This document shows, piece by piece, positions 10,993 to 33,260 of a stretch of 38,962 nucleotides of DNA (its first letter is position 1; the number at the start of each line of letters is the position of its first letter). The stretch is from contig CAIURC010000171.1 in NCBI GenBank assembly GCA_903901425.1, forward strand, positions 1-38,962, in the 5' to 3' direction. The position numbers were made by a program, and so were the translations under genes. Origin of the DNA: an uncultured Spartobacteria bacterium (GTDB lineage: Bacteria > Verrucomicrobiota > Verrucomicrobiia > Chthoniobacterales > Chthoniobacteraceae). The notes under the pieces are model-generated. The model did no database searches. It had not been told where the DNA came from and saw only the letters and a program-made list of their open reading frames with translations.

Positions 10993-11793
10993 ATGTTGTC
11001 TTCCCGTTCTGAACCCATGCCTGAGCCGGTCACGGAGACGCTCATGGCAGCGAGTGCGTGGCGCGCCTACCGGGCCGCTTCGCATTCGTTCAGCGAGGAG
11101 GAGACGCTCCGGGCCCATCTGCCCTTGGTTCGGAGCGTGGTGGACCGGATCCGGGCGACCCTTCCACCGCACGTGGAGGTGGAAGACCTCTACAGCGTGG
11201 GGCTGGGCGGTCTGATCCATGCGGCGCGTAAATTCGACCCGGCTTTGGGGGTTTCATTTTCGAATTTTGCGGCCACGCGGATCCGGGGGGCGGTTCTGGA
11301 CGAGTTGCGGCGGATGGACTGGATGAGTCGGTCGCTGCGCGGGAAGGCGAAAAAGCTCACGGAATCGATTGGGCAACTGGAGCAGAGCCTTGGGCGGCCG
11401 GCCACCGAGGAGGAAATTGCGTCGGAGCTTGGATTGAGCGTGCAGGAGTACGGGGAGTTGCTGGACGAGGTGAAACCGATCTGTTTTCTGGAACTGGACG
11501 AAGTCTCGGACCACGAAGGGGACGAGGGTTCACTGCACGAGGTGGTTCCGGACAACCGGCAGTCGACGGCTTCAGACCAACTGCTGGACAAGGAACTCCG
11601 GGAATTGGTAGTGCAACGTCTCCAGAAATTGCCCGACATCCAGCGCAAGGTTCTGGCAATGTACTATTTTGAGGATCTGCGCCTTGCCGAAATCGCTGAG
11701 GTGTTCAAGGTCACCGAATCGCGCATTTGCCAGATCCATGCTCAGGCCATCCTGAGCCTCCGCGCCTACATGAAGCACGCCACCCAACGTTAA
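10993..11793 (+). CDS. fliA: Flagellar sigma factor sigma-28 (FliA)
   Basis: 266 residues. Region 2 carries HLPLVRSVVDRIRATLP and VEDLYSVGLGGLIHAARKFD, then FSNFAATRIRGAVLDELRRM with the DWMSRSLR stretch typical of FliA. Region 3 follows (GQLEQSLGRPATEEEIASEL). Region 4 has the VLAMYYFEDLRLAEIA helix-turn-helix and VTESRICQIHAQAI. It directs RNA polymerase to late flagellar promoters, one of which is visible at 32099-32125. The start could be at 10993, 11017 or 11044. It is second in an operon driven by a sigma-54 promoter, the class order known from Pseudomonas and Vibrio. Confidence 0.95.
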   Translation: MLSSRSEPMPEPVTETLMAASAWRAYRAASHSFSEEETLRAHLPLVRSVVDRIRATLPPHVEVEDLYSVGLGGLIHAARKFDPALGVSFSNFAATRIRGAVLDELRRMDWMSRSLRGKAKKLTESIGQLEQSLGRPATEEEIASELGLSVQEYGELLDEVKPICFLELDEVSDHEGDEGSLHEVVPDNRQSTASDQLLDKELRELVVQRLQKLPDIQRKVLAMYYFEDLRLAEIAEVFKVTESRICQIHAQAILSLRAYMKHATQR

Positions 11794-20041: not shown

Positions 20042-20824
20042 ATGAATTTATCCACCCTCCGTCCCACCGCTGCCGTCCTGTCGATTCTGCTTCTTGCCGG
20101 CTGCGAATGGATGTCGCCCAAACAGGGCCGACCCAACCCAAAAATCGCGCCGTTCGTCCGGACTTACACCAAGCCCGGAGTCCCTGAACCCCGCCGGGTC
20201 GCCGTGCTTCCCCTCGATTTCAACCAAGCCACCGGGGAAACCCTCACCGACATCGACGAGATCTTCCTCTCGGAAGCCGGAAAAAAACTGCGGTTCGAAC
20301 TGGTGCCCATCAGCCGCCCGGACCTTTCCCGCTCCATTCACCGCGAGAATTTTTCGAGCACTGAACCCACTCCGCCGGAATCCCTCGGGTTCATCCGCGA
20401 GAAATACGCCGCCGATGCCATCCTGTTTACCGAGATCACATCTTACAGGCCTTACCGTCCAATTTCGGTGGGGGTCAGAAGCAAATTGGTGGATTCGGCC
20501 TCCCTCGCGACCCTGTGGTCTGCGGAAACCGTTCTGGATGCCGGGGATCCGGTGGTTGCAGAAGCTGCCGCGCTCTACGCGGGCCGCCAGAGCGCCACTT
20601 CCGATACCCGGGGCGCTGAAATGATCCTGCAAAGCCCGCGCAGGTTCCTCGGGTTTGTGGCATCACACCTGTACTTCACACTGCCCAAGTACTGGGCTGA
20701 ACCCGGCACCACCCCGTTCCTCTCCGGACAACCGGGTGGAACCTCTCCCAGCGCCACTCCTCGCCCCTCCGGATCCCAGACCGGTCCAGCCAAGCCCCGG
20801 AAATCCACACCGGGGGGCAAGTAA
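20042..20824 (+). CDS. Lipoprotein with a TolB_N/CsgG-like domain
   Basis: 260 residues. The lipobox LLLAGC gives an acylated Cys at about residue 20. RVAVLPLDFNQATGE (about residue 54) followed by an alternating helix/strand pattern, FIREKYAADAILFTEITSYR and SASLATLWSAETVLDAGD, resembles the nucleotide-binding-like fold shared by CsgG, LpoB, TolB_N and the middle domain of FlgT. The C-terminal 60 residues are Pro/Ser/Gly-rich. It is probably anchored in the outer membrane. The family suggestion rests on the pattern, not on a search. Inside a flagellar locus, a FlgT-like H-ring role is worth considering. Confidence 0.65.
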   Translation: MNLSTLRPTAAVLSILLLAGCEWMSPKQGRPNPKIAPFVRTYTKPGVPEPRRVAVLPLDFNQATGETLTDIDEIFLSEAGKKLRFELVPISRPDLSRSIHRENFSSTEPTPPESLGFIREKYAADAILFTEITSYRPYRPISVGVRSKLVDSASLATLWSAETVLDAGDPVVAEAAALYAGRQSATSDTRGAEMILQSPRRFLGFVASHLYFTLPKYWAEPGTTPFLSGQPGGTSPSATPRPSGSQTGPAKPRKSTPGGK

Positions 20825-20872: not shown

Positions 20873-20911
20873 CACTCAAGTCTCCATCCGGAATTCCGAT
20901 GTTTTCCGCAG

Positions 20912-20927: not shown

Positions 20928-20965
20928 GCGCCGTGGCCGCCTCCCCGCGCGCACCTCTAGATCCT

Positions 20966-21706
20966 GTGAACCCTCCGAGCCGACCGCCCTCAGGACCCGA
21001 CCCTGCCGCCCCCGCGGTGGCTCTGCGTGCGTTCAGGCAGGATCTCACCGCCGAACTGACTCTTGGGCTCCTGCACAAAATCAACAATCTTCTCACCCGG
21101 ATTCATTTCCAGGTGGAGGACTCCCTTGCGCTGTTGCAGCCCTCCCATCCGGTGAGTGCTCAGATTGCGGAGCTTTCCGAAAATATCGGGGGAATCCAGG
21201 CGCTTCTGGACCGGACATCGCAGATCAACCTCCCCCCATCGGAACAGGACAATTGCCCGATTTATGACCTCGAGGCGTCTGTCCACCAGCAGATGGACCT
21301 GTTGAAAATCCTGCTCCCGCTCTCCGAGATCCGGACGGTTTCAGAGGAAGCTCTGGCAATCCAGACCGGGATCCGGGAAGGCGAATTTGGTCTGCTCCTG
21401 CTTCAGATCGCCTGCGTACTCCGGGCCCTCCCAGTTCCGAAGCGGTCCCCGGTGTTCATTGATCTCCTCCGCGCCGACCAAACGCAGGTCTGCTTGGAGG
21501 GCCTCCCGTGGCATCCAGCTCAGACGGCCGCCGTGATCTTGGAAGCCGGTGCATTTTCGAACGACCAGACGGAGGTTCCTGCCGCGCTTGGCAAAACCGA
21601 GCGCCTCGCCGAGAGCGTAGGGTGCAGAATCCTGTGTCCGCCTCCGGATCCGGATGGGATGCGCCGTCTGCTGCTGCTTCTGCCAGAGAGTGCCCGGCCT
21701 GAATAA
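20966..21706 (+). CDS. Degenerate histidine kinase / ChpT-like phosphotransfer protein
   Basis: About 246 residues. A dimerisation helix resembling a HisKA H-box reads LTLGLLHKINNLLTRIHFQV, where the His is followed by K-I-N-N as in H-E-I-N-N. The second half looks like an eroded HATPase fold: the end ALGKTERLAESVGCRIL then MRRLLLLLP aligns by pattern with the C-terminus of kinases. However, no N-box, G1 (DxGxG) or G2 motif is visible. This is the architecture of ChpT-type histidine phosphotransferases. It ends six bases before the HD-GYP regulator and should exchange phosphate with it or with the sigma-54 regulator. The start is a GTG at 20966 or 20933. Confidence 0.6.
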   Translation: MNPPSRPPSGPDPAAPAVALRAFRQDLTAELTLGLLHKINNLLTRIHFQVEDSLALLQPSHPVSAQIAELSENIGGIQALLDRTSQINLPPSEQDNCPIYDLEASVHQQMDLLKILLPLSEIRTVSEEALAIQTGIREGEFGLLLLQIACVLRALPVPKRSPVFIDLLRADQTQVCLEGLPWHPAQTAAVILEAGAFSNDQTEVPAALGKTERLAESVGCRILCPPPDPDGMRRLLLLLPESARPE

Positions 21707-26207: not shown

Positions 26208-26714
26208 TCAAGCGACTTGGGCTGAAAAACCGCCCCCGGATCCGACCCGGGGCTCAATCGTTCCCTGCGAGGAGTAGGTCCCGGGGAGGGCGTGGGGATC
26301 CACGCTGGTCAGACGTTGGCGCGCCAGTTCCACCGCCTGCGCCAAAAGCATCCGGTTTTGGTGGGTGCGTCTCTGGACTTGGGCCACCAAGGCGTTGATC
26401 TCGTCCATCAACGCTCGCAGAAGGGGGCGCACCGGTTCCGGCAGGTCCGTCATCAGGCTTGAAAGCGCGCTGTCCTTGGGCCAACCCAATCCCACCGCCA
26501 GTTCCTCCACCAACCGTTCCCGCTGCCTCCGGCACTCTCCCACCCGGCCCATCTGGGCCTCCACCTCAGGATTCTTGCTCAAAAAACCCGCCGGATTCCG
26601 GGCCACGATCAAATGCTGCTGTTCTTCAAAAAGATGCAACAACCCGCCGTACTCCTGCAGCTCAGCCCTCAACGCTTCCACCAAAGGCCCGCTCATATCG
26701 CCCTTCTGGCTCAT
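26208..26714 (-). CDS. flgN: Flagellar export chaperone FlgN
   Basis: 168 residues, mostly helical: ALRAELQEYGGLLHLFEEQQ at the N-terminus, a charged central helix ECRRQRERLVEELAVGLG and NALVAQVQRRTHQNRMLLAQ near the C-terminus, followed by a Gly/Ser-rich tail. The length and the HQNRMLL segment fit FlgN, the cytoplasmic chaperone of FlgK and FlgL. It overlaps flgJ by four bases (ATGA) and is followed by its client flgK. An internal ATG seven codons later (MSGPL) is an alternative start. Confidence 0.85.
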   Translation of the reverse strand: MSQKGDMSGPLVEALRAELQEYGGLLHLFEEQQHLIVARNPAGFLSKNPEVEAQMGRVGECRRQRERLVEELAVGLGWPKDSALSSLMTDLPEPVRPLLRALMDEINALVAQVQRRTHQNRMLLAQAVELARQRLTSVDPHALPGTYSSQGTIEPRVGSGGGFSAQVA

Positions 26715-31627: not shown

Positions 31628-32029
31628 TTGGACCCGCACCCCGCTCCCGAACCGAAGCCGCCAGCCACCATCCTCTTGGTGGAGGACGACTCCATGGTTC
31701 GCCGCTGGGAAACCACCGTCCTGCAGCGCGCAGGGTTTCGGATCTTGGAAGCCGCTGACGGGGAAGAAGCCCTCCAGATCCTTTCTGAGGAACCCGGAGA
31801 TTCCCCGCAACTGGTCATCACGGACCTCGAACTCCCCACGATTTCCGGCGCGGATCTGGCCCTGCAACTCGAACTGCTGCGTCCGGCGGCACGCATCCTT
31901 TTCACATCCGGATACCCGGACGACGCACTGCCCGAACCGATTCACTCCCTGAAAACCCGGTTCGCCTTTTTCCGCAAACCGTTTTCCCCTCCCCATTTCC
32001 TCGAAATGGTTCGGTCCCTTCTGGCCTGA
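31628..32029 (+). CDS. Single-domain response regulator (CheY-like)
   Basis: 133 residues, a receiver domain only. VEDDSM (acidic pocket), phosphoacceptor Asp66 in LVITDLELP, ILFTSGY with the conserved Thr, and FFRKPFSPP with the conserved Lys-Pro. About ten residues of Pro-rich N-terminal extension precede the fold. The start is a TTG at 31628 because no ATG lies close enough upstream in frame. It is divergent from flgF across 276 bases. It could be a CheY-type switch ligand or a relay partner of the ChpT-like protein; the sequence does not decide. Confidence 0.85.
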   Translation: MDPHPAPEPKPPATILLVEDDSMVRRWETTVLQRAGFRILEAADGEEALQILSEEPGDSPQLVITDLELPTISGADLALQLELLRPAARILFTSGYPDDALPEPIHSLKTRFAFFRKPFSPPHFLEMVRSLLA

Positions 32030-32098: not shown

Positions 32099-32125
32099 TC
32101 AAGTCTCTCGAGGGCACGCCGATTT
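32099..32125 (+). promoter_or_regulatory. Sigma-28 (FliA) promoter of the flgM-like/fliS operon
   Basis: TCAAGTCT, 11 bases, GCCGATTT. This matches the FliA consensus TAAAGTTT-N11-GCCGATAA at six of eight positions in each element with exact spacing. It lies 28 bases before the start codon of the FlgM-like gene. Confidence 0.7.
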
Positions 32126-32152
32126 GTCTCCGTAGAAACTTTTCTCAAGCTT

Positions 32153-32440
32153 ATGGAAATCCGGCCTCAAAACGAAATCCTCGCTCCCGTGGCAATTCCG
32201 CCCAAGCCTCAGCAGGCGGCTCCCACCCCGATCGCAATTCGGGAAACCACCAACGACACGTTCCGCACCCCGCTCGCCCAGCGACTGAGGGCTGCCTTCC
32301 AGGCGGCACCCGAAGTCCGCGACGAAGCTGTTGCTCACGGCCGTGTGCTCGCCACCGACCCCCAGTATCCGCCGATGGAACGCCTGAACGCCATGGCAGA
32401 ACTGCTGGTTCTCGGCGCCAGCCGCGCTGCCGGCGAATAA
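32153..32440 (+). CDS. Candidate anti-sigma-28 factor (FlgM-like)
   Basis: 95 residues. The N-terminal half is Pro-rich and looks disordered. The C-terminal half reads APEVRDEAVAHGRVLA, a short gap, then PMERLNAMAELLVLG. That pattern (R-x-x-x-V at the start, a 12-15 residue spacer, a final helix ending in Leu-Leu) is that of the FlgM sigma-28-binding region. Length and disorder also fit FlgM. It sits right behind a sigma-28 promoter and 35 bases before fliS. FlgM holds FliA inactive until it is exported through the finished hook. The assignment is by pattern and context, not by a profile hit, so no symbol is given. Confidence 0.5.
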   Translation: MEIRPQNEILAPVAIPPKPQQAAPTPIAIRETTNDTFRTPLAQRLRAAFQAAPEVRDEAVAHGRVLATDPQYPPMERLNAMAELLVLGASRAAGE

Positions 32441-32475: not shown

Positions 32476-32901
32476 ATGATCTGCTATAGCCCTCTGAAGG
32501 TGTACCGCGAAGCCGCGGCCCGCAGTTCCTCCCCCGGTCAGCTCGTGCTGATGCTCCTCGACGGCGCCTTGCGCTTCATGGACTCCGCAGTCCAAGGGTT
32601 CGAGGAGTCAAACTTTGTGCGCCGGAACGAACTGGTCCACAACAACGTCCTGAAGTCCCAAGCCATTCTCTCCGAATTGCAGGCTTCCCTCAATCTGGAT
32701 GCGGGTGGCGAGTTCGGATCTACCATGTTCCGTCTCTACGACTTCATGCTTGAGCAACTCCGCCAGGCCAACCTGAAGAAAGTCGTGGAACCCATCCGGG
32801 TGGTCATGCAGTTGCTCGGTGAAATCCGTGAGGCATGGAGCCAGATGCTCCTCCAACAGCCCGCTGCCCGTCCCGCTGAAGGCTTGGCTGCCGCGTGCTA
32901 A
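32476..32901 (+). CDS. fliS: Flagellin export chaperone FliS
   Basis: 141 residues. YREAAARSSSPGQLVLMLLD followed by GALRFMDSAVQGFE is the FliS hallmark, then LVHNNVLKSQAILSELQASL NLDAGGEF and MLEQLRQANLKKVVEPIRVV. It binds the C-terminus of flagellin in the cytoplasm and prevents premature polymerisation. Flagellin itself is outside the window. It shares seven bases with the next gene. Confidence 0.93.
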   Translation: MICYSPLKVYREAAARSSSPGQLVLMLLDGALRFMDSAVQGFEESNFVRRNELVHNNVLKSQAILSELQASLNLDAGGEFGSTMFRLYDFMLEQLRQANLKKVVEPIRVVMQLLGEIREAWSQMLLQQPAARPAEGLAAAC

Positions 32902-33260
32902 CCGCCGAACAGGCTCGCTTTAACGCCCTCCTCAAACACCTTGAGGAGGGCGTTCGCATTCAGGCCGGGCTCCTCTCCGACCCCGAGGAGCTCCTCCGCT
33001 CCGCTTCCGAACTCGCCCCTTTCTGGGACGCGCTTGCCGAGCAACGGCAACATCTCACCGAGGAAAATCTCGCCCACTTCCTCCCTCGCCTCGAACGGCT
33101 CCGGTCCACCGCAAATGCCAATGCCACCGCGGCAGACGCCGCCACGGTTGCCCTCCGGACGGAACTCCATGAGATGGCCAGGACCGTTCTCAGGCTCCGC
33201 CAAGTGCTGCGGGGCACGAACCAGACCCCCGAAGACGCCCCGCGCACCCTTTGGGCGTGA
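32895..33260 (+). CDS. Helical protein in FliT position after fliS
   Basis: 121 residues, GTG start overlapping the fliS stop codon (GTGCTAA), so it is translationally coupled. It is almost entirely helical and charged: NALLKHLEEGVRIQAGLLSD, ELLRSASELAPFWDALAEQR, and RTELHEMARTVLRLRQVLRG. No sequence motif identifies it. Short helical proteins directly after fliS are often FliT-type chaperones (for FliD), and that is the likely role here by position only. Confidence 0.6.
   Translation: MLTAEQARFNALLKHLEEGVRIQAGLLSDPEELLRSASELAPFWDALAEQRQHLTEENLAHFLPRLERLRSTANANATAADAATVALRTELHEMARTVLRLRQVLRGTNQTPEDAPRTLWA

Follow-up and report, generated by a model that had tools for sequence, protein, structure and literature searches.

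Does the small open reading frame in front of fliS in a verrucomicrobial flagellar gene cluster encode an anti-sigma-28 factor that annotation has overlooked? PF04316, which together with TIGR03824 represents the FlgM anti-sigma-28 family, detects FlgM in only 1/288 sampled genomes of the phylum, from which one would conclude that sigma-28 operates in flagellated Verrucomicrobiota with no anti-sigma factor of its own. A literature search on FlgM in Verrucomicrobiota found no paper. The question is posed here by one locus of the window (the whole 38,962-nt stretch of DNA that was analysed, from an uncultured Spartobacteria bacterium), for which an earlier note had proposed a FliA-type promoter driving a divergent flgM together with fliS. 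As described below, the gene at this locus belongs to a family that is conserved in flagellated Verrucomicrobiota, is linked both to fliS and to a promoter of the sigma-28 type, and is related through intermediates to PF04316 (Table 1).

A small gene under purifying selection precedes fliS

The open reading frame, which starts with the ATG at 32153, is a real gene under purifying selection. Its product shares 78% protein identity with an orthologue from the same genus, 46 of the 74 differences between the two genes fall at third positions, and dN/dS is 0.17 (dN 0.17, dS 1.02).

In FlgM, the N-terminal half is disordered, and the C-terminal half is helical and binds the sigma factor. Both sequence halves quoted in the earlier note are present in the window protein, namely a Pro-rich stretch (residues 1-40) and APEVRDEAV...LNAMAELLV (residues 52-86). 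The disorder proposed for the first half also agrees with an AlphaFold2 model (18 relatives), in which residues 1-39 are unstructured, with low pLDDT, and are followed by helices at residues 40-51, 54-68 and 75-94. The model itself is of modest confidence (pLDDT 69, pTM 0.34), and the FlgM-like arrangement of the two halves is predicted with moderate confidence only. A structure search with this model gave no PDB match, as is to be expected for a protein that is short, partly disordered and helical.

The gap between this gene and fliS is 35 nt. The end of fliS is overlapped by a 121-aa open reading frame, for which no family of Pfam or NCBIfam scored above cut-off, and which has weak homologues (E ~1e-5) after fliS in loci L002 and L006. 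The same genome encodes a sigma factor of the FliA class as well as flagellar proteins: the FliA of the window is the only one over the curated cut-off genome-wide, a flagellin gene lies elsewhere in the genome, and FlhA was also found.

Table 1 Features of the window discussed in the text.
Feature	Coordinates	Strand	Basis
Sigma-28-type (FliA) promoter, TCAAGTCT-N11-GCCGATTT	32099..32125	+	Sequence; upstream conservation in 41/49 linked homologues
Divergent FlgM-type anti-sigma-28 gene (predicted), 95 aa	32153..32440	+	Homologue family, fliS linkage, PF04316 intermediates, AlphaFold2 model, purifying selection
fliS, flagellin export chaperone	32476..32901	+	PF02561 106 bits, E 1.8e-30; TIGR00208 80.4 bits (cut-off 53.75)
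121-aa open reading frame in the fliT place, third gene of the presumed operon	32895..33260	+	Position; homologues after fliS in L002, L006
fliA, presumed target	10993..11793	+	TIGR02479 240.8 bits (cut-off 189.6)
flgN, hook-filament junction chaperone	26208..26714	-	PF05130 60.2 bits

Two other neighbours were recorded. A single-domain response regulator (31628-32029, + strand) lies directly upstream of the promoter, and a similar one occupies the same place in L002. A lipoprotein (20042-20824, + strand), 11 kb from the flgM-type gene in the window, is homologous (E 1e-20 to 1e-35) to one whose gene immediately precedes the flgM-type gene in L003, L004, L005, L043 and L054; it is conserved, unnamed and linked to flagellar genes.

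The family follows flagella and is linked to fliS

A first family profile, built from six homologues, was searched in 286 genomes of the class and matched 67 of them. Genomes were considered flagellated if FlhA was found at flagellar scores or if FliS was present, giving 73 flagellated and 213 other genomes. By this first profile, a family member was found in 63/73 flagellated genomes versus 4/213 others (Fisher p ~2e-47, a value that overstates independence because the sampled genomes are related), and in three of the four matching genomes without flagellar markers, nothing but the C-terminal motif of short proteins was matched. The named relatives in the genome collection, from a search with a single homologue, were Opitutaceae and other Opitutia of the Verrucomicrobiota.

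Every one of the 30 best loci has fliS immediately after the family gene. When the remaining loci were read as well, together with the fliS surroundings in genomes lacking a linked match, two arrangements emerged: across the 73 flagellated genomes, the family gene sits directly before fliS in 55 (five of them found only with a wider profile) and away from fliS in 16. Combining the first profile, the wider profiles and PF04316, an FlgM-type gene is present in 71/73 sampled flagellated genomes; no member was detectable in G216 or in G299, the latter with a completeness of 82%.

Short proteins of ~62-73 aa that carry only the C-terminal motif, VxxGRxLLxDPxYP...IA, were seen at L065:1980-2201, L066:1995-2183 and L074:1992-2180 (minus strand), and also in L064 and L056. 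Those of G168, G209 and G262 come from genomes that have a FliA-class sigma factor and no match to FliS or flagellar FlhA, and such proteins are possibly FlgM-like regulators outside flagella. Separately, a gene of ~200 aa lies directly upstream of fliS in L104, L106, L108, L109, L110 and L113, where the FlgM-type gene is not adjacent.

A sigma-28-type site is conserved upstream of the family

The promoter described in the earlier note was read back exactly as claimed, with TCAAGTCT at 32099-32106, an 11-nt spacer at 32107-32117 and GCCGATTT at 32118-32125, leaving 27 nt between the end of the site and the ATG. Judged from sequence alone, it is a site of the TAAAGTTT-N11-GCCGATAA type that marks the FliA regulon. 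With the E. coli FliA consensus as the yardstick, shuffled versions of the window are expected to hold ~0.05 sites of equal quality per strand, and the same score is reached by two further sites of the window, so that the single site is weak evidence when taken alone.

The promoter evidence is strong because the site is conserved upstream of linked homologues. Counting sites that score at least 19 within 200 nt upstream of the gene, we found one at 41 of the 49 fliS-linked loci tested, starting 28-126 nt before the start codon. The controls gave 0/49 inside the gene, 1/49 on the opposite strand and 3/49 with a reversed consensus. Unlinked family members, such as those in L055 and L045, also have an upstream sigma-28-type site, and in the genome of the window, a similar but weaker one (TAAAGGCG-N11-ACCGATCA) lies ~130 nt upstream of the flagellin gene. 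When the whole genome was searched with a pattern taken from the window site, allowing two mismatches, there were 13 matches versus 16 in the backward control and so no excess; as the pattern comes from the site itself, this search is circular and is not counted as evidence.

A second sigma-28-like site, TCAAGTCT-N11-TCCGATGT, was observed at 20876-20902 (+ strand) of the window, 30 nt before an open reading frame at 20933-21706, which is possibly another late gene.

These results bear on whether the locus is a functional unit at all. That a chance open reading frame happens to follow a chance promoter could be argued from the equal-scoring sites elsewhere in the window and from the lack of a database name for the reading frame, but this explanation is refuted by homologues across the class, by the conservation of the promoter and by the dN/dS of 0.17, and we give it practically no weight.

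Intermediates connect the family to FlgM

The earlier note had proposed a profile check against PF04316, and for the window protein itself this check failed: no Pfam family, PF04316 included, was matched even at E 10, and NCBIfam at E 10 gave one meaningless short stretch only, with no match to TIGR03824. Likewise, comparisons with Pfam, NCBIfam and PDB found nothing, whether made with the protein alone or with six of its close homologues, and only wider alignments tied the protein to FlgM. Judging by these sequence searches, the window protein is beyond the reach of the PF04316 model. As it lies below the curated FlgM cut-off, we call it a divergent FlgM-type homologue and not a PF04316 member. 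The note had named an unmistakable flgM at another place in the genome as evidence to the contrary; a search with PF04316 across the whole genome of the window found none. Divergence is also seen with known queries: an approximate E. coli FlgM sequence matched no FlgM in PDB, which shows how strongly FlgM diverges in general; Aquifex FlgM was recovered exactly.

The connection emerged when family members were scanned singly. Among 55 members, 19 were matched by PF04316 (best E 1.4e-7) and 14 by TIGR03824 (best 2.3e-7), and no other Pfam family recurred. PF04316 is still the leading family if only linked members are considered (11/39, best 0.0012). These linked members reach at most ~20 bits against the PF04316 cut-off of 25 bits, whereas members away from fliS pass it (31.9 bits in L045, 32.0 in L067). 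PF04316 was also searched in 72 genomes: its matches in the linked genomes G163 and G233, which are below cut-off, land exactly on the fliS-linked gene, fliS-linked genomes show no second FlgM by PF04316, and in genomes without linkage the match lands on the unlinked family gene.

Profile comparisons gave the same picture. By hhalign, linked members align with unlinked members at 98% probability (score 72) and with a combined FlgM set at a score of 67, compared with at most 12.75 for column-shuffled controls of that set. A comparison with nothing but five FlgM proteins from outside the phylum fails to convince (probability 6.6%, score 20), so the link to FlgM depends on the verrucomicrobial intermediates. 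Structures of FlgM in PDB include 1rp3 and 1sc5 (Aquifex) and 9wsf. The FlgM of 9wsf is the top match of the whole-family profile (E 0.00096) and the one chain found by a profile of linked members only (E 0.024). Conversely, the family profile recovers the Pfam-positive FlgM of G093 (2e-4) and G167 (7e-12), both of which were absent from it when it was built. Homology to recognised FlgM is thus found by profile methods by way of verrucomicrobial members, and the alignments show a matching gradation in the turn motif, from GxYxVD in classical FlgM through GxYPPP in the intermediates to DPxYPP in the linked members.

Could the gene instead encode a FlaG-like filament protein, or some other small sigma-28-dependent late protein that resembles FlgM by chance? 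The upstream promoter is of the late class, the gene sits in a fliD-fliS neighbourhood, near which FlaG genes are also found, and the YPP-E motif of the family loosely resembles the end of FlaG. Of the 55 members, however, none matches a FlaG model even at E 10, compared with 19 for FlgM; FlaG identity is rejected on this count, and we regard a protein of this kind as very unlikely.

The gene could also encode a FliS-specific accessory protein, a co-chaperone or competitor rather than an anti-sigma factor, its place in the fliS operon reflecting FliS binding only. This would fit the finding that the gene strictly adjoins fliS in 55 of the 73 flagellated genomes, and other small partners of FliS are known, HP1076 among them (PMC7248283). 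Yet the homologues that lie away from fliS, in 16 flagellated genomes, are the very ones that score as FlgM, and PF04316 leads even among linked members, which makes an accessory role improbable.

The FlgM identity put forward in the earlier note is therefore supported by intermediates over the PF04316 cut-off, the profile-profile match, the lead of PF04316 among linked members, the top PDB match, near-perfect co-occurrence with flagella, the conserved promoters and the single FliA. We conclude that the small gene before fliS in Verrucomicrobiota is very probably an overlooked FlgM.

Comparison with known systems and proposed mechanism

The window protein resembles FlgM in size, in its predicted disordered first half and its predicted helical second half, in occurring in a genome with FliA behind a sigma-28-type promoter, and in homology through intermediates. 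It also shares the order of elements: first a helix with R-x(3)-V, next a turn whose aromatic residue is almost invariant, and finally a hydrophobic helix. Unlike the FlgM family, it lies below the Pfam threshold, and unlike classical FlgM, the linked family has DPxYPP in place of the GxY turn.

Gene order differs as well. In Salmonella and E. coli, flgM adjoins flgN, an order that also occurs in L129, whereas the window gene lies before fliS. As in the flgMN operon, an anti-sigma gene would be followed by an export-chaperone gene, and the late-type promoter of the window locus has its counterpart in the late (sigma-28) promoter of flgMN (PMC8527033). The chaperone differs, being FliS (for flagellin) and not FlgN, the gene for which is 5.4 kb away on the other strand. 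FliS and FlgM are reported to interact in Salmonella and Yersinia (PMC8527033, PMC5466977). In Salmonella, FlgM bound by FliS is secreted less when the filament begins to grow (PMC8527033, citing Galeva et al. 2014, Xu et al. 2014 and Yokoseki et al. 1996; also PMC5466977). The genes flgM and fliS belong to different operons in those bacteria; in Verrucomicrobiota, the two are encoded side by side, and an interaction between their products is a prediction.

Taken together, we consider it highly likely that 32153-32440 encodes a divergent anti-sigma-28 factor of the FlgM type, in which the first half is predicted to be flexible and competent for export and the helical second half to bind FliA. 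In the mechanism we propose, the C-terminal helices would bind FliA and keep it inactive up to completion of the hook, at which point the FlgM-type protein would be exported through the flagellum and FliA freed. Free FliA would then transcribe late genes, including flgM-fliS-(third gene) from the promoter at 32099, and because this transcript includes flgM, newly made FlgM would close the loop; newly made FliS would escort flagellin and could hold FlgM. A single message for the FlgM-type protein and FliS would keep both in balance. A bolder reading, which we offer as speculation and think rather unlikely, is that the late checkpoint of Verrucomicrobiota is wired around FliS: with the FlgM-type gene and fliS in a common operon, FliS, and not FlgN, would set the level of free anti-sigma factor, FliA activity would be a read-out of flagellin demand, and the DPxYPP turn would fit FlgM to binding both partners.

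Implications for flagellar regulation in Verrucomicrobiota

Most of the apparent FlgM gap is removed by an FlgM-type gene in 71 of 73 sampled flagellated genomes. Standard gene models miss FlgM-type control in Verrucomicrobiota, nearly all sampled flagellated members of which have the family, and annotators gain a profile for an overlooked gene. Gene order pairs this FlgM-type gene with fliS, the enterobacterial product of which is known to bind FlgM, and FliS-FlgM coupling thereby becomes testable in Verrucomicrobiota.
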